Source: Desulfovibrio sp. TomC (lineage in GTDB: Bacteria > Desulfobacterota > Desulfovibrionia > Desulfovibrionales > Desulfovibrionaceae). From it: DNA of 64,000 nucleotides. The notes beneath the pieces were generated by a model. It was given only the letters and a program-made list of their open reading frames with translations. It did not search any database and was not told the origin of the DNA. The first letter of the stretch is position 1; every line of letters begins with the position of its first letter. The translations under genes were made by a program, and so were the position numbers. The DNA is taken from NCBI RefSeq assembly GCF_000801335.2, contig NZ_JSEH01000002.1:248001-312000 (forward strand), read 5' to 3'. Positions 29,570-39,707 of the stretch are shown here, piece by piece.

Positions 29570-30454
29570 CTACCAGTCCTGTTTGTGGCCGAAGAAGCCT
29601 GATGGTTTGACAAAGAGAATGATCAGAAAAATGGCGTAGATGATGGCTTCCGTCCAGGTCGAAGCCATAAACTGCGAGAACACGGATTCAATAAGGCCGA
29701 TGACCAGGCCGCCGAGCAGCGCCCCCGGGATGCTGCCCAGGCCGCCGAGCACCACGATGATAAAAGCCCGGATGTCGAAGACCACGCCCACCGACGGATA
29801 GACGTAGTAAAAGGGGATGAGCACGCAGCCGGCGATGCCGGCAATGGCCGTGCCCAGGCCAAAGGCGATGTTGTAGACGCGGTACTGGTCAATGCCCATG
29901 AGGTTGGCCGCCTCGCGGTCAAGACTGGTGGCGCGCAAGGCTTTTCCGGTCTTGGTCTTGCGCATGAAGATGGCAAGACCGACGGCCGTCAGGATGGCCA
30001 CGACAAAACCGGAGAATTTCGGAATGGAGATGATGTATTGCCCAAGGGCGAAAGATTTATTGGAAATGGCCGTGCGAACGGTGCGGTACTCGGCGCCAAA
30101 GAGCATGAGCGCCAAGTTGTCCAGGACATACCAGACGCCTGTGGTGACGATGATGACCGTCAGCGGTTCGCGGACCTGGCCTTCGGCTTTAAACACGGGT
30201 TTGATGACCACGTCCTGCAGATAGTAGCCGAAAACGAACAGGACGGGCGGTACAATGACAAGGGCCAGATACGGGTGGATGCCCGTGAGACGAATCAGCC
30301 AATAGGCGCTGAACATGCCGACCATGAGCAGTGAGCCGTGGGCGAAGTTGACGACCTTCATCACGCCGAAAATCAGCGTGAGTCCAAGGGCCGTCAGCCC
30401 GTACATGGCTCCCATCATGGCGCCGTTAAGCGTCGCCTGAATCACCGCGGTCAT
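29570..30454 (-). CDS. livH: branched-chain-type amino acid ABC transporter permease LivH
   Basis: 294 residues, about eight membrane segments. N-terminal GAMMGAMYGLTALGLTLIFG and VNFAHGSLLMVG are LivH hallmarks; DREAANLMGIDQYRVYNIAF is the ATPase-coupling region. RBS GGAGAGG before ATG 30454. Follows livJ after 66 nt that contain a strong hairpin. Confidence 0.95.
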   Translation of the reverse strand: MTAVIQATLNGAMMGAMYGLTALGLTLIFGVMKVVNFAHGSLLMVGMFSAYWLIRLTGIHPYLALVIVPPVLFVFGYYLQDVVIKPVFKAEGQVREPLTVIIVTTGVWYVLDNLALMLFGAEYRTVRTAISNKSFALGQYIISIPKFSGFVVAILTAVGLAIFMRKTKTGKALRATSLDREAANLMGIDQYRVYNIAFGLGTAIAGIAGCVLIPFYYVYPSVGVVFDIRAFIIVVLGGLGSIPGALLGGLVIGLIESVFSQFMASTWTEAIIYAIFLIILFVKPSGFFGHKQDW

Positions 30455-30474
30455 GAGGCCTCTCCGGACGTTTG

Positions 30475-30504
30475 GCCCCGGACCGGCACGGACCGATCCG
30501 GGGC
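30475..30504 (-). terminator. intra-operon hairpin between livJ and livH
   Basis: GCCCCGGA (30475-30482) and TCCGGGGC (30497-30504) with inner CCGG pairs form a GC-rich stem without a T-run. This is the usual position for a hairpin that stabilises or partly terminates the abundant binding-protein mRNA. Confidence 0.5.
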
Positions 30505-30520
30505 GTTGGTGCCATGAATG

Positions 30521-31768
30521 CTATTTATTGGCCGGGAAGACCGGGGTGTAACCGGCGCGGCGGGCGGCTTTCGGCCATACGGTGACGCGCTCGGGCTTGC
30601 CGTTCACATTGGCCACCTGGACAATGACGATGCCGGCGTTCTTGTTCTGTCCGGTCTCGTCGAACTGGACGCCGTCGTAGGAGACGACCATACCCGGTCC
30701 GGTGGTCAGGTTGGTGGTGGCCAGGGCCTCGCGGATCTTGGCCGGATCGGTGGAAGCAGCGCGCTCCAGGGCGTCGGCGATGACGTACATGGCGACGTAG
30801 GCGTCAACCGACTCGCCGGTCAGGTCGTAGCCGTACTTCTTTTTGAACTTCTCGTTGGCGGGCTTGGCCTGGGGCTTGTTGACGTCGGTGTTCCACTCGA
30901 CTTCGTCAAAGATGCCAAGGGCGTTGGTGTCGGTATTGTCCAGGAAGGTGGGATCGGCATGGCCGCCGCCGCTGGCCAGGACGACTTTGGGCTTGAGCTG
31001 CATTTCAGCCATGGTGTTGGTCAACAGGATGGCGTCGGCCGCGTTGGAGACCAGCATGACGATGTCGGGGTTGGCCGACTTGAGCTTGGTCACGACCGGG
31101 GTCAGGTCGGTGGCGGTTGAGGGATACGGCTCGTCCAGAACGATCTCGTAGCCGTCTTTCTTGGCCAGCTCGCGCCATTTCTCGGCAAAGCCGGTGCCCC
31201 AGTCGCCGTTTTCAAAGAGGAAGGCGATCTTTTTGAGCTTCACGCCGGTTTCTTCCTGCATGTCTTTCAGGAAGCGGAATTGGTCGCGCACCCACCAGGA
31301 GTCCTTGGCGGCGATGCGGAAGACGTTTTTAAAGCCACGCTCGGTAATGGTGTCGCGCACGGCAACCGGCACCACAAAGGGGATGCCGTAGCGCTCGGCC
31401 ACCTGGGTGGCCGGGTAGGTGACGGCGGAGTTCCAGCAGCCGGTCATGAGGTTGACCTTCTCGGTATTGATCAAGCGCTCGGTCTCGGTGACGCCGACGG
31501 TGGGGTCGGACTTGCTGTCGGCATAGACCAGCTCCAGCTTGGCTCCGCCCAGCGACTTGATGCCGCCGGCGGCGTTGATCTCTTCCACAGCCATTTCCCG
31601 GGCCTGCTTGCCCTGGACGCCGACCGAGGCCGAGGGGCCGGAGAGCGGCTCGACGTTGCCGATTTTGACGGTTTTGTCAGCGGCCAGGGCCGGGACGGCG
31701 AACAGGGCGGCGGAGAGGGCCACGCCCATACAGCCGGCCAAAAGCGACGTAAAAGAACCGTTTTTCAT
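30521..31768 (-). CDS. periplasmic amino-acid-binding protein (LivJ-type, HAAT family)
   Basis: 415 residues from ATG 31768. Signal peptide MKNGSFTSLLAGCMGVALS... ends at AALFAVPALAA, cleavage near residue 29. Mature part has the Peripla_BP_6 fold: IGNVEPLSGPSASVGVQGKQ, EINAAGGI, YADSKSDPTVGVTETERLI. WVRDQFRFLKD and FLFENGDWGTGFAEKW line the cleft. It delivers the ligand to LivHMGF. The ligand is likely an amino acid, amide or omega-amino acid; the following aminotransferase and AOR argue for one giving an aldehyde. Confidence 0.93.
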   Translation of the reverse strand: MKNGSFTSLLAGCMGVALSAALFAVPALAADKTVKIGNVEPLSGPSASVGVQGKQAREMAVEEINAAGGIKSLGGAKLELVYADSKSDPTVGVTETERLINTEKVNLMTGCWNSAVTYPATQVAERYGIPFVVPVAVRDTITERGFKNVFRIAAKDSWWVRDQFRFLKDMQEETGVKLKKIAFLFENGDWGTGFAEKWRELAKKDGYEIVLDEPYPSTATDLTPVVTKLKSANPDIVMLVSNAADAILLTNTMAEMQLKPKVVLASGGGHADPTFLDNTDTNALGIFDEVEWNTDVNKPQAKPANEKFKKKYGYDLTGESVDAYVAMYVIADALERAASTDPAKIREALATTNLTTGPGMVVSYDGVQFDETGQNKNAGIVIVQVANVNGKPERVTVWPKAARRAGYTPVFPANK

Positions 31769-31820
31769 GCCTACACCCCTTTGTTGGTTGTCGGTTGCCT
31801 GTGTCGGACCGTGTTGCCAG

Positions 31821-33146
31821 CTATTTGCCGAGGGTCTTGGACACCTCGCGGATGCCTTCTTCCATGATGTCGAGGCCGCGTTCGAGCTGCTCGCGGGTGA
31901 TGACCAGAGGCATAAGCACTCGGATACAGTTGCCGAAGTTGCCGCAGGACAGCACGAGCAAGCCGTTGTCCTGGCAGAACTTGGCCACGCCCTTGGCCGC
32001 TTCCGGGCACGGGGTCTTGGCGGCGCGGTCCGAGACGAATTCCAGGGCGCGCATGGCCCCCAGGCCGCGTTCGTCGCCAATCAGTTCGTACTGTTTCTTG
32101 AAGGCGGCAAAGCGCCGTTTGACGGCGTTGCCCAGGCGCTCGGCCTTGGCCAGCAGGTTGTCCTGCTCAAAGATGTCCATGACGGCAAGGCCAGCCCGGC
32201 AGGCCAGCGGATTGCCGCCATAGGTGCCGCCGATGCCGCCGGGAGCCACGGAATCCATGATTTCGGCCTTGCCGACCACGCCGGCGAGCGGCAACCCGCC
32301 GCCCATGGACTTGGCCACGCACATGAGGTCGGGAGTGACGCCGAAGTGTTCCATGGCAAAGAGCTTGGAGGTGCGGCCAAAGCCGGACTGGATCTCGTCG
32401 GCCACGAACACGATGCCGGTCTCGTCGCAGATGGCCCGTATTTTTTCGAAGAATTCCTTGGGCGGGACAACAAAGCCGCCTTCGCCCTGGACCGGCTCGG
32501 CCACGATGCAGGCGATGTTCTCGGCGGCGGCAGTGCCTACGAAGAATTCACGCATCTTGTCGGCGCAGGCTACGCCGCACTTGGGATAGGTCAGGCCCAG
32601 CGGGCAGCGGTAGCAGTAGGCGTAGTAGGGGTACTGGTAGACTTCAGGAGCCATGGGACCGAAGCCGAACTTGTAGGGTTTGACCTTGCTGGTCATGGAC
32701 ATGGCCATCAGGGAGCGGCCGTGGAAGGCGTTTTTCATGGCTACGACGCCGCTGCGGCCGGTGTGGCAGCGGGCAATCTTGACGGCGTTTTCCACCGCCT
32801 CGGAGCCGCTGTTAACGAACATGGCCTTCTTGTCGCCCTCGCCCGGAGCCGCGTCACAGAGGCGTTTGGCCAGCATGACGTAGGGTTCGTACATGGTGAC
32901 CATGGAGCAGGTGTGGAGATAACGCCCGGCTTGGTCCTTGATGGCGGCCACGACTTTGGGGTGGCAGTGTCCGACGTTGAGTACGCCGATGCCGCCGACG
33001 AAATCGATGAACTCGCGTCCGGTGACGTCGCGAAGCAAAGCGCCCTTGGCAGATTCGACGAAAAAGGGCGTGGCGTTGGGATGTCCCTTGGGGACATAAC
33101 GGTCGCGCAGTGCTTGCAGTTCTTGCGCCTTATCGGTGGTGTTCAC
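31821..33146 (-). CDS. class III aminotransferase (4-aminobutyrate/omega-amino acid type)
   Basis: 441 residues starting at GTG 33146 (GAGGA 7 nt upstream). PLP fold-type I: NSGSEAVENAVKIARCHTGR, AFHGRSLMAMSMTSK, AEPVQGEGGFVVPP, FVADEIQSGFGRTSKLFA and the PLP lysine in CVAKSMGGGLPLAG; GIGGTYGGNPLACRAGLAVM follows. This is the GabT-like class III group, which converts a terminal amine to a semialdehyde using 2-oxoglutarate or pyruvate. First gene after the sigma54 promoter. The natural amine is unknown. Confidence 0.93.
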   Translation of the reverse strand: MNTTDKAQELQALRDRYVPKGHPNATPFFVESAKGALLRDVTGREFIDFVGGIGVLNVGHCHPKVVAAIKDQAGRYLHTCSMVTMYEPYVMLAKRLCDAAPGEGDKKAMFVNSGSEAVENAVKIARCHTGRSGVVAMKNAFHGRSLMAMSMTSKVKPYKFGFGPMAPEVYQYPYYAYCYRCPLGLTYPKCGVACADKMREFFVGTAAAENIACIVAEPVQGEGGFVVPPKEFFEKIRAICDETGIVFVADEIQSGFGRTSKLFAMEHFGVTPDLMCVAKSMGGGLPLAGVVGKAEIMDSVAPGGIGGTYGGNPLACRAGLAVMDIFEQDNLLAKAERLGNAVKRRFAAFKKQYELIGDERGLGAMRALEFVSDRAAKTPCPEAAKGVAKFCQDNGLLVLSCGNFGNCIRVLMPLVITREQLERGLDIMEEGIREVSKTLGK

Positions 33147-33223
33147 GGATCATCCTCGGATGTTTCGGTTTATGGCGACAGTGCCTCGTACTAAAATGCA
33201 CATAGACGGTAACAGGTCTTTCC

Positions 33224-33239
33224 AGCAAGAACCGGGCCT
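33224..33239 (-). promoter_or_regulatory. sigma54 promoter of the aminotransferase-liv-AOR operon
   Basis: Minus strand reads AGGCCC-GGTTC-TTGCT: GG (33238-33237), exactly 10 nt, then GC (33226-33225), matching the invariant -24/-12 spacing. TTGCT fits the -12 element. The start would lie near 33213, a ~67-nt leader before the GTG. The gene just upstream encodes a sigma54 activator. Confidence 0.7.
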
Positions 33240-33297
33240 TCTTTGTAAATTGTGTTATTTTAGTGAGTTGATAATTTCATGTTGCTTTGAAGTGCAG

Positions 33298-33323
33298 TTG
33301 TTGATTCATGACTGAATCAACAA
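33298..33323. promoter_or_regulatory. 26-bp perfect palindrome, upstream activator site
   Basis: TTGTTGATTCA-TGAC-TGAATCAACAA, 11-bp perfect arms, centred about 97 bp upstream of the predicted sigma54 start. Placement is typical for an enhancer bound by a sigma54 activator; the adjacent TyrR-like protein is the obvious candidate. Confidence 0.7.
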
Positions 33324-33370
33324 AAATGCAAAAAAATAATCATAACAGGATATTAGTCGATGAACAGTTC

Positions 33371-33387
33371 TGACTCAGGATGAATCA
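33371..33387. promoter_or_regulatory. second, weaker activator half-palindrome
   Basis: TGACTCA-GGA-TGAATCA resembles the inner part of the 26-bp palindrome (TGATTCA/TGAATCA) with one mismatch and a 3-nt spacer, about 70 bp further upstream. Paired sites are common for sigma54 activators. Together with the promoter it accounts for most of the AT-rich, gene-free 33147-33563 gap (417 nt). Confidence 0.45.
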
Positions 33388-33493
33388 CAGCGATACAGCC
33401 GCTCAAACCACTCGAAATCCCGCATGAATATTTTGCACATTGACCGGAAATTGATGATAATATCAATAGATCCTGGATGTTATCCGCAAAACG

Positions 33494-33532
33494 GGAAAAA
33501 CCGGGACAACGCCTGAAAAGGCGTTTCCCGGT
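33494..33532 (-). terminator. terminator of the sigma54 activator gene
   Basis: ACCGGGA-CA-ACGCC-TGAAAA-GGCGT-T-TCCCGGT (33500-33532) folds into a long hairpin. On the minus strand it is followed by TTTTT (33499-33495). It separates the activator transcript from the operon promoter. Confidence 0.75.
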
Positions 33533-33563
33533 CCTGGCTCAACGAGGCTGATGCAAAAATGAA

Positions 33564-35264
<1,701 letters not shown>

Positions 35265-35383: not shown

Positions 35384-36103
35384 CTACAGGCAGACCGTCT
35401 TCCTGCCCAAGGCCCGGACGAGCGCGTCGGCCAAGTGGTCGCTGACACTTGTAAGCGACTCCTCGCCGCCCAGGGCAAACCGCTGGTTCACCTCCAATTC
35501 CACGCCCATGTACCTCTCACCGAAGCGGCGGCGCAAGGCGGTCGCCAGTCCGTCGGATACCCCGCGATAGGGATAGTTGCGCCGCACAATGAGATCATTG
35601 TCCAGACAAGCCAGCTCACGCAACCAGCGGGCGCAAAACGTTTTTTCCGCTATCCTGCCGGGATCGTAGAGAAAGCCAACATCGCAATGGCGGGTTACTT
35701 CGCCCAAGCGCGGGGTGAAGCTGTGGCTGGCAATGTGGAGCACGGTTGCCCCGCCGGCCAAGCCGTCGGCCACCAAGCGAGCCACGGCCTCGCGGTGGGG
35801 ATGGTAGTGGGCGGCCAGGATGGCCTGCCTGGCGGCGCGGGGCAGGCCCTTTGTCACACCCGAGAAAAGCCGGGGATGTCCGACCGAACGGTTGAGGTCC
35901 ACGAGCAGGCGGCTGACCGTGGCGGCGAGCAGCGGGGCGGCTACGGCCCGGGCCAGCGCCTGGGCCGTGGCCAGCGCGCCGAGGTCGAAGCCCCGGTGGC
36001 TGGCCAGGACCTCGCCCCAGTCGGCAAAAAACGGGGCATAGTCCCCGGGCACGGCATTGCCGCCGTGCTCACAGGTAATAAGAAGCGCCCAGGATGCCGA
36101 CAT
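35384..36103 (-). CDS. N-formylglutamate amidohydrolase family protein
   Basis: 239 residues if started at ATG 36103, overlapping the GCS2 gene by 35 nt. Motifs: LLITCEHGGNAVP (family EHGGN metal motif) near residue 10, LLVDLNRSVGHP, HYHPHREAV, HIASHSFTP and VELEVNQRFAL. The fold is zinc carboxypeptidase-like; classical HutG/FGAH hydrolyses N-formyl-glutamate. No histidine-degradation genes are nearby. Its place in an operon with two ligases and a peptidase suggests it trims or deblocks a glutamate-containing peptide. Confidence 0.85.
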   Translation of the reverse strand: MSASWALLITCEHGGNAVPGDYAPFFADWGEVLASHRGFDLGALATAQALARAVAAPLLAATVSRLLVDLNRSVGHPRLFSGVTKGLPRAARQAILAAHYHPHREAVARLVADGLAGGATVLHIASHSFTPRLGEVTRHCDVGFLYDPGRIAEKTFCARWLRELACLDNDLIVRRNYPYRGVSDGLATALRRRFGERYMGVELEVNQRFALGGEESLTSVSDHLADALVRALGRKTVCL

Positions 36104-37334
36104 TGAACGGCTCGTTTCGGATGAGGCAATCCGCCAGCTGGCCGTAGATGCGTTTGATGGTGCCCGGGCGATAGTCCCCGTCCACGGCGGCCAGGATGCG
36201 CCGGGCCAGACTCGATTGATCGACCAGGACGCCAAGCGCCTTTTCCCAGTCCGGATCAAAATCCATGGTCGGCAGGGCGCTTAGGGCCAGCCGCCGCCAG
36301 ATGACCCTGGCTGGGATGTATGACGGGGCATAGACGCCAAAGAGCCGGGCATAATCTTCGGAAACCTTGGTGCGTCCGGCGTCGTGGACCGTCTTGCCCA
36401 GGATGTCGGCGAGTTCGCGAGTGCCCCAGGCCTTCTGCTCCTCGTAGGTGGACCAACGTTCTTCAACCAGACCTTTAAGAGCGGCCACCACCACCCCGGC
36501 CAGGGCGAAATCGGCAGCCGGGCACTCCTGGGTGTCGAGCACCCGGATTTCGATGGTGGAGCGCTCGAACCGGGGGATCGCCCCGCGGGCATTGAGAAAA
36601 TCACCGTGGAGCAGGCCGTCCGGGTCCAAGGGGGCAATGTCGCGGTAGAGGGGCTCAAGCACGCGCTGGTGGTATTCATCCATGGAAAACACCGCTTCCG
36701 GGATGACCAGGCCCATGACCGAGGGGACCCGATCGGCGTTGTGGGCATAGTATTCCATCCGGGTGTCCAGAAAACCCGTGGCCTTGCCGTTGAGAATGGG
36801 CGTGGAGGCGGCTAGGGCCGGCATGATGGGCAGGAGCACCCGAATGGCGGCATGGAGCCGGCCGAACTCGTCATCACCCTTGAAGGGCAGGTTGATGTGC
36901 ATGCTTTGCAGGTTGGCCCAGCCATGACCCTTGCAATTAAAGATACTGTCAAAGGTCCGGTAGAGGTCGCCATTCTCGTGGGGCCACAGCACGGTTTCCT
37001 TGAAAGGGTCCATGAGGGGGTGGGCGCCGGTGGGCAGCAGGCGCGCGCCAAGCGGTGCCAGCAATGCGTCGGCTTTCTCCACGCTCTTGGCAAAAGCGGC
37101 AGCCAGGCCCTTGAGACTCTTGGCCGGCTTGGTCACTTTCATTTCCAGCACATGGGCCACCAGTTCGTTGGACCAGGTGACCGGCCCCATGACCGCGTCG
37201 CAGGCCCCTTGCTGGCCGGCGGCTGCCGCCAGCAGGGCGTCGGCCACGGGTTTGATCTCAAGCGTTTCCCGATCCACGATCATGTATTCGATCTCGATGC
37301 CGAAAGCGGAAAAAAGCGGTCTGGCCTTGGTCAT
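36069..37334 (-). CDS. GCS2-family carboxylate-amine ligase (glutamate-cysteine-ligase-like)
   Basis: 421 residues. FGIEIEYMIVDRETLEIKPV at the N-terminus is the GCS strand with Mg/ATP-binding glutamates; LEMKVTKPAKSL, GAHPLMDP, NLQSMHINLPF with the family His, and STIEIRVLDTQECP follow. Such enzymes use ATP to join a glutamate gamma-carboxyl (or related acid) to an amine. It lies between the ATP-grasp and amidohydrolase genes; start overlaps the RimK-like stop (ATGA). Confidence 0.9.
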   Translation of the reverse strand: MTKARPLFSAFGIEIEYMIVDRETLEIKPVADALLAAAAGQQGACDAVMGPVTWSNELVAHVLEMKVTKPAKSLKGLAAAFAKSVEKADALLAPLGARLLPTGAHPLMDPFKETVLWPHENGDLYRTFDSIFNCKGHGWANLQSMHINLPFKGDDEFGRLHAAIRVLLPIMPALAASTPILNGKATGFLDTRMEYYAHNADRVPSVMGLVIPEAVFSMDEYHQRVLEPLYRDIAPLDPDGLLHGDFLNARGAIPRFERSTIEIRVLDTQECPAADFALAGVVVAALKGLVEERWSTYEEQKAWGTRELADILGKTVHDAGRTKVSEDYARLFGVYAPSYIPARVIWRRLALSALPTMDFDPDWEKALGVLVDQSSLARRILAAVDGDYRPGTIKRIYGQLADCLIRNEPFNVGILGASYYL

Positions 37335-38806
37335 ATATTGAGGCTCCCGGTTTTACGGCGTTCAATGCGTTTGAGAAAGACTTCCATCACCCGCAGATAG
37401 AGTTCATCCTGCAGGACTTCGTCTTCGTAGCCGACATCGATATTGGGGTTGTCGTTGACTTCGATGACGTAGACCTTGTCCCCAACCTGCTTGAGATCGA
37501 CGCCATACAGGCCGTCGCCGATGGCCGAGGCCGCCTTGAGCGCCGCGTTGATCACTTTTTTGGGTACCTTGGCCACCGGCAGGGTTTCCACCCGGCCATA
37601 GATGTCCTTGCCGGACTTTCCCTTGAGGAGAATCTGCCAGTGCCCGGCGGCCATGTAATACTTGCAGGCGAAAAGGGGGCGCTTGTCCAGAATGCCGATG
37701 CGCCAGTCATAGTCCGAGGGCAGGTATTCCTGGGCTATGACCAGATCGGATTTGGCCAGGAGGCGTCGGGCTTCCTGGATAAGGGCGTCGGATTCGCGCA
37801 CCAGGACCACGCCCTGGGAAAAGGCGCTGTCGGGTTGCTTGAGCACGCAGGGCAGGGACAGCTCTTCCAGGATGTGGTCGATGTTCTTGCAGTGGGCGAT
37901 GATGGTGCGCGGGGCCGGTATTTTGTGCCGAGCCAGCACCTCGGCCAGATAGACCTTGTTGGAGCAGCGCAGGATCGATTCCGGATCGTCGATGACAACC
38001 AACCCTTCGGCTGCGGCTTTTCGGGCCATGCGATAGGTGTGGTGGTCGACGTTGGTAGTTTCGCGGATAAAAAGGGCGTCAAACTCGGAGAGCCGGTTGG
38101 AATCCTCCCGGGTGATGATTTCAACGCCAAGTCCCAGGTTCTCGGCCGCCTTGGTGAAGCGCTTGATGGCCCGGGCGTCCGAGGGGGCGCGCTGTTCCTC
38201 GGGATCGTGCAAGATGGCCAGGTCGTAGCGGCTGACCTGGCGTTTGGGGATGCTGACTTTCTTGCCGGTGAAATAGTCGGCGGACACGGCTTCGGCGAAA
38301 TCGCGCTCCTCCTCGGGAATATCGCGTACGGACAGGGGGGAGACGTTTTGCAGCTGCCAGCCATTTTGGAAACTGAGATCGGCCCGCAGGAAGGGAGCCG
38401 GGAAGAGCTTGAACAGCCGTGAGGCCAGTTGCTCCAAACCTTTTTCCGGCGTCTTGCCGAAATAGGCCGAGAAGCTTGTTTTCTCGGGCGCGCGCTCGGC
38501 CAGCACCCGGTCCATGAGCTCGGAGAGTTCTTCCGAGGCCAGCCGGATGATGCCGACCGACTTCATGTCCTGGATGGCGGTAATGGAGGGCACGGGCCTG
38601 TGGCCACGGGCCTCGGCCAGAAGCGAAACGTAGTAGCCCATGGACTGGTAGCGGTAGGAACGGCAGATATTGATGATTTTGACGCCGCGCAGGGTAGTGA
38701 AGGCCTCGTCGGCCAGATAGCTGCGGGCGGCAACGGATTCGACGCCGGAAAAAACCAGGGAACAGTCCTCGGGGTTTTCGATGACCACCAGAACGGACAC
38801 GCTCAC
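37331..38806 (-). CDS. RimK-family ATP-grasp ligase with N-terminal RLAN domain
   Basis: 491 residues from GTG 38806 (AAAGGAG just upstream). Residues ~1-155 match the RimK-like ATP-grasp N-terminal (RLAN) type: VLVVIENPEDCSLVF, IINICRSYRYQSMGYYVSLL. A pre-ATP-grasp domain (residues ~200-290) precedes the ATP-grasp core: LPCVLKQPDSAFSQGVVLV, VIAQEYLPSDYDWRIGILD, GVDLKQVGDKVYVIEVNDNP (metal ligands E/N). Family members add amino acids, often glutamate, to peptide or protein carboxyls. Overlaps both neighbours by 4 nt. Confidence 0.92.
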   Translation of the reverse strand: MSVSVLVVIENPEDCSLVFSGVESVAARSYLADEAFTTLRGVKIINICRSYRYQSMGYYVSLLAEARGHRPVPSITAIQDMKSVGIIRLASEELSELMDRVLAERAPEKTSFSAYFGKTPEKGLEQLASRLFKLFPAPFLRADLSFQNGWQLQNVSPLSVRDIPEEERDFAEAVSADYFTGKKVSIPKRQVSRYDLAILHDPEEQRAPSDARAIKRFTKAAENLGLGVEIITREDSNRLSEFDALFIRETTNVDHHTYRMARKAAAEGLVVIDDPESILRCSNKVYLAEVLARHKIPAPRTIIAHCKNIDHILEELSLPCVLKQPDSAFSQGVVLVRESDALIQEARRLLAKSDLVIAQEYLPSDYDWRIGILDKRPLFACKYYMAAGHWQILLKGKSGKDIYGRVETLPVAKVPKKVINAALKAASAIGDGLYGVDLKQVGDKVYVIEVNDNPNIDVGYEDEVLQDELYLRVMEVFLKRIERRKTGSLNI

Positions 38807-39567
38807 AAGCTCCTTTGCCGGTCTTCGGACCGACTTTTCTTTTTGGGGGATAAGACGAGCAGATTGGCGTCACAGGTAATGATGCCAAGCATGACGGCGC
38901 ATACCAAGTGGTTGAGGGTGACCTCGTAGTACTGGCTGGCGCTTATGGGATTGGGCAGCAGCGGATCGGCGATATGGGTGGTGCGGCTGGCTGCCTCGTA
39001 GCCGTTTAAGACCACAAAATGGCCGGCCGGGCGGCCGCGCAGATCGTCAAAAACCGTGATGCCGTTTTTTTCGCGCTCCCGGGGGGTGCGGTAAAGATAG
39101 GTGGCCGAGAGACCGGCCAGAATGGGGCGGTTGCGTTTGAGGATGGAACGAATGAGCCCGGCCGTGAGATCCTCGAACCGGATTTTGCCGCCGCGCTGCA
39201 AAAAGGCCTGATAGGCAACGGTTGCTTCGCGCAGGCGCGGTTCAGTCTTGTAATGCAATTGATCGGTCAGTTTCCGGGCGAGATCGACGTCCGGGGAATC
39301 AAACCAGGTGATGTCAAAGACTGTCAGATCAAAAGAATACAGTTTGGCGGCGTAGCCCCGATCCAGGGCGTGGCAGCCAAGGTGGGCGGCCAGGGTGCCG
39401 CCGCCGGGCAGGGTGGTGACCCCGGCGATGACCGAGTCCAGGGAGACCGCGTCGCCGTAGTAGCCGTACACGGCCTGCAGGCAGGTCGGCCCGCAGGTGG
39501 TGTCGTCGGGCTGGGCCTGGATGGAAAGGGCAAGTTTGCTTGATTCCACGACTGTGGGGACTAGCAC
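38803..39567 (-). CDS. C39-like cysteine peptidase, cytoplasmic type
   Basis: 254 residues from GTG 39567 (start uncertain, no clear RBS; GTG 39549 is possible). Papain-like/C39 features: QPDDTTCGPTCLQAVYGYYG with catalytic Cys25, GHFVVLNGYE with His183 and IADPLLPN with Asp201, giving a complete triad. No signal peptide, TM or ABC module, unlike bacteriocin-processing C39 exporters. First gene of the four-gene ligase operon. It may cleave the product or precursor made by the ligases. Confidence 0.82.
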   Translation of the reverse strand: MLVPTVVESSKLALSIQAQPDDTTCGPTCLQAVYGYYGDAVSLDSVIAGVTTLPGGGTLAAHLGCHALDRGYAAKLYSFDLTVFDITWFDSPDVDLARKLTDQLHYKTEPRLREATVAYQAFLQRGGKIRFEDLTAGLIRSILKRNRPILAGLSATYLYRTPREREKNGITVFDDLRGRPAGHFVVLNGYEAASRTTHIADPLLPNPISASQYYEVTLNHLVCAVMLGIITCDANLLVLSPKKKSRSEDRQRSL

Positions 39568-39680
39568 GGGCCGGGTCGGCTGACCATGGCCCGATTTGTC
39601 ATATTCGCAGATTTTGCCTGGAATCGCATTGGTTTGGAATGATTTTGACGGGCAGGAAGTTTTTTTGCACCGGACAAAAC

Positions 39681-39704
39681 CCCCGCTTCCCGGGGAGGGC
39701 GGGG
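39681..39704 (-). terminator. terminator of fliM
   Basis: CCCCGC (39681-39686) and GCGGGG (39699-39704) form a stem. On the minus strand it is followed by GGTTTTG, 4 nt after the fliM stop. Confidence 0.5.
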
Positions 39705-39707
39705 CGG

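Follow-up and report, generated by a model that had tools for sequence, protein, structure and literature searches.

An order-conserved RLAN-GCS2 ligase operon in Desulfovibrio sp. TomC and its possible role in small N-capped peptide metabolism

Gene neighbourhoods combining RLAN, GCS2 and papain-like peptidase proteins were reportedly predicted by Iyer et al. in 2009 as amidoligase systems, and the Pfam entry for RLAN lists GCS2 among its neighbours. We know of no substrate for any RLAN protein, and searches of the open-licence literature for RLAN and for the gene combination considered here turned up no paper on RLAN and no reported function. The operon described below is a variant of this predicted, uncharacterised class, and the original prediction was therefore too strong in calling it undescribed. 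An RLAN-RimK ligase accompanied by a papain-like peptidase is common to the operon and the neighbourhoods said to have been predicted in 2009. In contrast to those neighbourhoods, GCS2 is found here together with an N-formylglutamate-amidohydrolase-like (FGase) enzyme, the peptidase stands alone or is absent, and the GNAT acetyltransferase that otherwise partners RLAN is lacking. Glutathione and phytochelatin synthesis likewise employ a GCS2-family ligase, an ATP-grasp ligase and a papain-like enzyme, but where the products of the operon matched glutathione models, they did so below the curated cut-offs. In the asnO-ngg pathway to the osmoprotectant NAGGN, Ngg both acetylates a glutamine and couples it to another, and the operon includes a peptidase (PMC8070244). 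N-acylation, peptide bond formation and an operon-encoded peptidase are points of likeness; however, the relevant passages of that source name asparagine synthase, a GNAT enzyme and a glutamyl aminopeptidase, and not RLAN, GCS2, FGase or C39 (PMC8070244). RimK/RimB glutamylation of ribosomal protein S6, as outlined in the corresponding accounts, relies on a same-fold ATP-grasp ligase that is opposed by a peptidase (PMC12239564, PMC10092738), whereas the operon adds an RLAN domain and a further ligase and draws on different peptidase families.

The window, a 64,000-nucleotide stretch of the Desulfovibrio sp. TomC genome, carries four genes on the minus strand, in the order C39-like peptidase, RLAN-RimK ligase, GCS2-family ligase and FGase-like enzyme (Table 1). 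Both the four families and the overlaps of 4 nt (38803-38806), 4 nt (37331-37334) and 35 nt (36069-36103) agree with the original prediction, and the Pfam matches of all four proteins exceed curated cut-offs. The peptidase probably starts at the GTG at 39549 rather than at 39567, because in L016, a relative from the same genus, a stop interrupts the frame two codons ahead of the corresponding GTG. The FGase frame stays open as far as a TTG at 36259. Adjoining the operon are a PAS-sigma-54 activator and, judged by eye from the open reading frames (ORFs), aminotransferase and amino-acid uptake genes. No sigma-54 site was matched in 39568-39707 with up to one mismatch allowed, and no RNA element reached the Rfam gathering score in seven loci.

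Table 1. Positions of the four genes and of two ligase domains in the window.
Feature	Position	Strand	Evidence
C39-like cysteine peptidase, first gene	38803..39567 (likely start 39549)	-	ORF of 254 aa, GTG; PF13529; invariant residues
RLAN-RimK ATP-grasp ligase, second gene	37331..38806	-	ORF of 491 aa, GTG; PF14401 and PF08443; AF2/Foldseek
RLAN domain, ligase residues 27-172	38291..38728	-	PF14401; AF2 model; Foldseek; sequence tests for and against
Catalytic ATP-grasp domain, ligase residues 282-457	37436..37963	-	PF08443; invariant columns; RimK alignment
GCS2-family carboxylate-amine ligase, third gene	36069..37334	-	ORF of 421 aa, ATG; PF04107; invariant residues
N-formylglutamate-amidohydrolase-like (FGase) enzyme, fourth gene	35384..36103	-	ORF of 239 aa, ATG; PF05013; invariant residues

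Across 79 loci found via the GCS2 gene, in about nine phyla, the RLAN ligase adjoins GCS2 in every case, the FGase-like gene is present in 70 and missing from nine, and gene order is constant wherever the genes occur, whether in sulfate reducers, marine Bacteroidota, Planctomycetota or Fibrobacterota. Spacing is at most 30 nt between C39 and the RLAN ligase in 33 of 34 loci, between the RLAN ligase and GCS2 in 70 of 79, and between GCS2 and FGase in 64 of 70. Because order and adjacency recur across phyla, the gene set is not a product of chance. The two ligases are its core. The C39 peptidase is dispensable: its gene is present in 34 of the 79 loci and missing from 45, and no orthologue was found in any of the 45 genomes whose locus lacks it. 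These counts support the proposal of a linked functional unit; rare co-occurrence, named at the outset as a refuting outcome, was not observed. The glutamate-rich peptide or protein modification proposed along with it is conjectural. No viral carriage was found in a search with the peptidase, and a search of 72,556 plasmid records with the GCS2 protein returned one, which looks like a piece of chromosome, so that plasmid carriage was rejected.

Each family keeps its likely catalytic residues. The peptidase (PF13529 Peptidase_C39_2, 2.3e-8) has invariant Q19, C25, H183 and D201 among 26 aligned sequences, in accord with the complete Cys/His/Asp set noted earlier, and is a stand-alone protein lacking an ABC module, as had also been stated, in place of the fusion to an ABC exporter that marks C39 leader peptidases of ABC transporters. 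In the FGase-like enzyme (PF05013, 8.9e-22), C11-E12-H13, D40, H123 and H127 are invariant in 21 sequences; it belongs to this broad family only, scoring 13.4 against a cut-off of 278.75 with the HutG N-formylglutamate deformylase model TIGR02017. The GCS2 protein (PF04107, 3.6e-26) has E14, E16, E57, H146, R192, E262 and R264 invariant in 28 sequences. It scores below every NCBIfam cut-off, including those of the glutamate-cysteine ligase (GshA) models (TIGR02048, 27.4 vs 249; TIGR01436, 14.4 vs 463), of EgtA (13.4 vs 371) and of the YbdK carboxylate-amine ligase (TIGR02050, 62.7 vs 176.4 bits). Simple synthesis of gamma-glutamylcysteine, considered at the outset as an outcome that would speak against a new pathway, is thus called by no NCBIfam model above its cut-off. 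The GCS2 substrate pocket cannot be read, since the family profile matched no solved structure at E 0.001; the single sequence matched one plant enzyme weakly.

The second gene product consists of RLAN (PF14401, 2.2e-47, 160.9 bits against a cut-off of 25) followed by a RimK-type ATP-grasp domain (PF08443, 4.8e-11, 43 bits against 21). R369, D437, E449 and N451 are invariant in 27 sequences, and D437, E449 and N451, which we take to be the metal-binding Asp/Glu/Asn of ATP-grasp enzymes, are intact. The ligase scores far below the PRK10446 equivalog for RimK modification of S6 (27.9 vs 331) and the glutathione synthase (GshB) models PRK12458 (49.3 vs 408) and PRK05246 (22.3 vs 272), and no Ngg model is among the 25 of its 26 NCBIfam matches listed. 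An AF2 model of the whole ligase (pLDDT 85.7) has LysX, ArgX and RimK as its top Foldseek matches. Over residues 1-185, the RLAN half (pLDDT 92.3), the modelled fold resembles an ATP-grasp enzyme without the ATP lid. The sequence counterpart of this likeness is the rank of one diagonal; profile comparison of RLAN with ATP-grasp was not significant, and sequence proof of homology was consequently dropped.

RLAN ligases form two clades according to their partner, which is either GCS2 or a GNAT acetyltransferase mostly fused to C39. The comparison covered 132 loci, the 79 found via GCS2 and 53 more, 11 of which have GCS2 without the RLAN-partner GNAT, 41 that GNAT without GCS2, and one neither; no locus of the 132 has both. 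Of the 41 GNAT-type loci, 39 encode GNAT separately, no more than 284 nt from the ligase; in one locus it lies 1.4 kb away, and in one (L170) it is fused to the ligase. In 22 of the 41, the GNAT gene is on the opposite strand. Fusion of GNAT to the RLAN ligase itself occurs in three loci (L170, L215 and L219). In the ligase tree, the GCS2 type occupies one side of a single branch (SH-aLRT 100) and the GNAT type the other, with the exception of L170. None of the 79 loci is of the GNAT type, as no RLAN-partner GNAT or GNAT-C39 above 40 bits lies within 3 kb. Two of them have weak GNAT matches (24.9 and 28.2 bits), and in four a different GNAT, fused to a carbon-nitrogen hydrolase, lies near the operon, which makes the exclusion imperfect. 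The swap between GCS2 and GNAT may reflect clade rather than function.

The earlier observation that no small substrate peptide gene adjoins the operon is in line with ORF searches. Near the 79 loci, no substrate gene conserved across phyla was found among ORFs of at least 60 aa, nor was one found among the 2654 ORFs of 15-80 aa that lie no more than 600 nt from the operon; within the same limits, no cross-phylum conserved ORF was available as a linked graspetide (RiPP) precursor. The widest of the ten widest small-ORF families listed covers 41 loci; the first 12 loci named per family all belong to the Bacteroidota R-G-N type (RLAN ligase-GCS2-FGase), and an alignment of the underlying DNA from 10 loci resembles promoter sequence. 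A hidden substrate gene was thus rejected within these limits. A further candidate peptide gene, an ORF of 8 codons that overlaps the start of the peptidase, was also discarded, its residues not being conserved within the genus. The lack of a conserved fifth gene favours a small molecule as the product.

With a probability just short of even, the operon serves to build and recycle a small N-capped peptide in the cytosol; the likely catalytic residues kept in all four families count towards it, as do the linkage, order and tight spacing in the 79 loci, the partner split, the GNAT-ligase fusions and the precedent of Ngg. Against it weigh the loci that lack the FGase-like enzyme or C39, the imperfect exclusion of GNAT and the GNAT genes on the opposite strand. 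We infer the location, substrates, step order and product as follows. The GCS2-family enzyme would use ATP and a carboxylate, most likely the glutamate side chain, to cap an amine. With a second ATP, the RLAN-RimK enzyme would then couple the carboxylate of the capped acid to another amino acid. The FGase-like enzyme would hydrolyse the N-acyl bond, and the C39 peptidase, where present, might cut or transpeptidate the peptide. In sister systems, an acyl-CoA-derived cap would come from the GNAT enzyme, in the place that GCS2 would fill here.

LysX, ArgX and RimK, whose folds come closest to that of the ligase, have a carrier protein or the C-terminal end of a protein as substrate, which fits a protein-tagging cycle as well. 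In such a cycle, RLAN-RimK would add residues at the C-terminus of a protein whose gene lies elsewhere, GCS2 would add or branch glutamates, and C39 and the FGase-like enzyme would remove them, much as RimK and RimB act on S6. Invariant R248, R369 and N451 align with the RimK poly-glutamate contacts R64, R189 and N262; however, that arginine and asparagine are common to much of the ATP-grasp superfamily. The pairing of a ligase with an antagonist peptidase does match the RimK/RimB layout, as far as the published outline describes it (PMC12239564). Yet none of the 45 RGN- or RG-type genomes has an orthologue of C39, the would-be eraser, and the 79 loci yielded no conserved substrate gene; tagging appears unlikely.

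A glutathione-like gamma-glutamyl tripeptide seems improbable. Here GCS2 would form gamma-Glu-X, the ATP-grasp enzyme would add a third residue and the papain-like C39 protein would act like phytochelatin synthase. The three folds are those of glutathione and phytochelatin synthesis. The genome of the window holds a single GCS2 gene, and its best match to glutathione synthetase, at 25.7 bits, is unconvincing. Nevertheless, the proteins score below every glutathione family cut-off, and judged by these family models the operon is not one for glutathione synthesis. Among 42 carrier genomes tested for a glutathione-synthetase domain, 27 lie outside the phylum of the window, and 13 of these 27 hold a strong one (>160 bits), for which reason a general replacement of glutathione was rejected. 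The homology of the fourth gene product to N-formylglutamate amidohydrolases, together with the neighbouring activator, aminotransferase and uptake genes, would suit the breakdown or salvage of an amino compound that carries an N-acyl or gamma-glutamyl group, in which the ligases activate the substrate as in the degradation of gamma-glutamylated amines. This reading is very improbable: the activator is close to the operon in only 5 of the 79 loci, and the presence of two ligases that spend ATP, with no conserved oxidase or dehydrogenase, would speak against pure catabolism.

A broader extension of the capped-peptide pathway is tentative and stands well short of an even chance. RLAN systems as a whole may be a modular bacterial route to N-capped peptides with an exchangeable cap enzyme, GNAT for an acetyl-type and GCS2 for a gamma-glutamyl-type cap, built on a tandem ATP-grasp whose first copy, RLAN, would have lost its ATP lid to become a non-catalytic substrate- or partner-binding half. 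The split between GNAT and GCS2 leads directly to a prediction that can be tested, namely that both types share their ligase chemistry and differ in the N-cap. If the lidless reading of RLAN is true, an uncharacterised Pfam domain becomes recognisable as a pseudo-ligase. A gene set whose order is conserved in such distant phyla should yield a product useful to very different cells, and if the modular route is real, that product would represent a new class of metabolites across some nine phyla.

The operon in the window has a core of two ATP-dependent ligases, a GCS2-family enzyme (G) and an RLAN-RimK ATP-grasp enzyme (R), accompanied by a C39-like peptidase (C) and an N-formylglutamate-amidohydrolase-like enzyme (N). 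Consistent with the original prediction of four overlapping genes of these families, ORF reading places them on the minus strand with overlaps of 4, 4 and 35 nt, and all four exceed Pfam cut-offs. None of the four reached the cut-off of a listed NCBIfam model (for R, 25 of 26 matches were listed). The closest named relatives of the host genome are Solidesulfovibrio and Desulfovibrio, with GCS2 protein identities of 76-95%. Downstream, the stretch holding the sigma-54 activator also carries a system for branched-chain amino-acid uptake together with an aminotransferase gene (ORFs read by eye). A short element resembling CATGGYCA, about 11 bases and CCGTGRTAG lies 5' of the peptidase gene (window 39568-39594) and recurs at the matching place in many genomes of the genus (neighbourhoods among L003-L016). 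Because its codons are not conserved, it may be regulatory.

Features of the operon, its surroundings and related loci (L numbers denote fetched loci)
Feature	Position	Strand	Remark
C39-like peptidase (C)	window 38803-39567	-	likely start 39549
RLAN-RimK ligase (R)	window 37331-38806	-	
GCS2-family ligase (G)	window 36069-37334	-	
N-formylglutamate-amidohydrolase-like enzyme (N)	window 35384-36103	-	
fliM	upstream of operon	-	ORF reading
PAS/sigma-54 activator	downstream of operon, within window 29570-35264	-	Pfam
GNAT-carbon-nitrogen-hydrolase fusion	L070:2952-4478		also L076, L077, L098
Carboxypeptidase-like protein, ~584 aa	L070:1154-2887		and 17 other loci
GNAT-RLAN-RimK fusion	L170:6704-8650		genome G225; long branch in R tree
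DUF2817 (PF10994)-kind protein	L217:7225-8469		and four other loci

All four proteins look active, since their likely catalytic residues are kept in alignments of rows hand-picked from the loci, a subset of all. In C, Q19, C25, H183 and D201 are invariant across 26 sequences, bearing out the expectation of a peptidase with an intact catalytic set. R has invariant D437, E449 and N451 (27 sequences), G has 59 invariant positions that include acidic, His and Arg residues (28 sequences), and N retains C11-E12-H13, D40, H123 and H127 (21 sequences). The roles of individual residues are assumed here from general knowledge. R248, R369 and N451 of R align to R64, R189 and N262 of RimK, which contact bound poly-glutamate (PMC10092738).

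A contig scan with G (84,980 genomes by the database description) returned 175 relatives, the best 80 of which gave the 79 loci examined, a sample biased by its selection for similarity to the window protein. The predicted co-occurrence of the families in the same order holds for the two ligases, R adjoining G on the upstream side in 79 of 79 loci; 27 loci have C-R-G-N, the others having R-G-N (43), C-R-G (7) or R-G (2). The count of loci lacking N is an upper bound because at least one contig (L050) stops shortly after G; in L122, an extra gene separates G from N. By taxon labels, the loci span about nine phyla (Desulfobacterota, Bacteroidota, Planctomycetota, Nitrospirota, Deferribacterota, Myxococcota, Fibrobacterota, Sumerlaeota and Pseudomonadota), several represented by MAGs only. 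C is an optional member of the operon: among 48 genomes (45 of R-G-N or R-G type and three positive controls), a C profile matched strongly (367-375 bits) in the controls only. Nine non-control genomes gave partial matches, none above 26.3 bits, eight of which fall within frames of at least 730 aa, as would be expected of ABC exporters.

Within the window genus, R is found at 86% identity or more in 14 of 14 genomes (the host genome counted), in 2 of the 10 other genomes sampled from the family (46% and 56% identity), and as a strong match in 0 of 16 other genomes of the order. The RLAN family alone was positive in 17 of 395 genomes of the window-phylum sample, in 72 of 398 genomes of the phylum of genome G481 (labelled Pseudomonadota) and in 0 of 14 control genomes. 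A 9-kb record named as a Legionella adelaidensis plasmid (NZ_LR134436.1, L221) carries R-G-N beside fur, bamE and a ratA-type gene, and by these neighbours looks like a piece of chromosome. C-R-G-N also occurs on a MAG contig doubtfully labelled Klebsiella pneumoniae (L124), and the RLAN ligase gene of L171 (G267:C6) is broken into two reading frames. In 18 of the 79 loci, a protein that looks by eye like a secreted zinc carboxypeptidase is encoded upstream of R; the one tested had no Pfam match at 0.01.

RLAN ligases can be grouped by partner. Fifty-three further neighbourhoods comprised 13 from the window phylum (11 of the 17 RLAN-positive genomes plus G014 and G018) and 40 of the 72 RLAN-positive genomes in the G481 phylum, one of which (G481) was already known via G. 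With a GNAT-partner profile built from these same 53 loci, 11 contain G without such a GNAT, 41 the GNAT without G, and one neither; the two occur together in none of all 132 loci. In the 79 G-found loci the profile matched just twice, and weakly (24.9 and 28.2 bits); four of these 79 loci have, next to the R-G-N genes, a GNAT of another kind that is joined to a carbon-nitrogen hydrolase in one protein. The GNAT loci include 29 with GNAT-C39-sized genes, 11 with smaller GNAT genes, and one (L170) in which the match lies within the ligase itself. Thirty-nine of the 40 separate GNAT genes overlap R or lie at most 284 nt away (the other at 1.4 kb), 18 on the strand of R and 22 on the opposite one. 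Among six partner proteins, Pfam identified four fusions of GNAT with PF11814 (C39-like), one GNAT only and one DUF2817; four other neighbours gave unrelated families or none. PMC10318531 describes DUF3335 as often fused to GNAT domains. Five of the 40 G481-phylum neighbourhoods have a protein of the DUF2817 kind close to the RLAN ligase, one of them Pfam-confirmed.

A quick tree search without bootstraps, on 77 R sequences taken from the 53 further neighbourhoods and from 24 of the 79 loci, recovered one branch (SH-aLRT 100) parting 36 sequences (35 G-type and L170) from 41 (GNAT-type, one with neither partner). L170 has no GCS2 and no separate GNAT partner nearby; in L215 and L219, a GNAT match inside the ligase frame accompanies a separate GNAT-C39 gene. 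Such fusions are good evidence that GNAT and the RLAN-RimK ligase act together, and we infer that G takes the place of GNAT in the other ligase clade.

The AF2 model of R (mean pLDDT 85.7) has LysX, ArgX and RimK as best PDB matches. Residues 1-185, which contain the RLAN domain, reach pLDDT 92.3 when modelled alone, and the best 50 of their 884 Foldseek matches are all known as ATP-grasp-fold proteins; eight of these 50 have E <= 0.001 (top 4.1e-5). TM-scores by query length are 0.35-0.59 and rmsd 8-13 A, with alignments of about 230-330 columns for 185 residues, which require large gaps. RLAN helices 56-66, 75-82 and 84-101 match catalytic-half helices 256-266, 275-282 and 284-293 at an offset of 200. 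This offset had been spotted beforehand, both from the helices and by looking at the sequence, so the sequence test was not blind. The top ungapped window at offset 200 comes first to third among 379-419 diagonals in nine overlapping tests, with raw scores not clearly better than shuffles, of which 5 to 240 in 300 score as high. No sequence support for offset 200 comes from the C-terminal part of RLAN, offset 218 scoring nearly equally, and an RLAN versus ATP-grasp profile comparison was not significant (in one test, 3/60 and 4/60 shuffles as high). On balance, we lean towards RLAN being a lidless ATP-grasp.

GCS2 enzymes form an amide between an amine and a carboxylate, usually that of a glutamate side chain. 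Enzymes of the RimK/LysX type activate a carboxylate and couple it to an amino acid. A small N-capped peptide is the favoured product in the predicted chemistry, held at a shade below even confidence. G would add the N-cap, a step indicated by the GNAT counterpart in the sister systems, N would remove it, and C, where present, would cut the peptide. Together with that counterpart, this choice draws on the best-known parallel, the NAGGN pathway, in which Ngg acetylates one glutamine and links another to it on the route to the osmoprotectant, and whose operon also has a peptidase (PMC8070244). The GNAT-hydrolase fusions beside four GCS2-type loci lower confidence in the capped peptide slightly. 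The leading alternative is protein tagging by the operon, since proteins are what the closest folds of R modify. Glutathione-like synthesis is disfavoured by the family models and by the glutathione-synthetase domains of carrier genomes.

A 2009 study by Iyer et al. reportedly defined RLAN-type amidoligase neighbourhoods. It is among the references of PMC12239564 and PMC4431377; the accessible parts of PMC2922099 and PMC3597751 contain nothing on the operon. Open-licence literature on RLAN, RimK with GCS2, and RimK with N-formylglutamate amidohydrolase yielded no title on this operon among those listed, which is weak evidence of absence. The amide-ligase operon is real, conserved and uncharacterised, and of a kind already predicted, with a putative chemistry; the partner split and the lidless reading of RLAN make the operon hypothesis testable.
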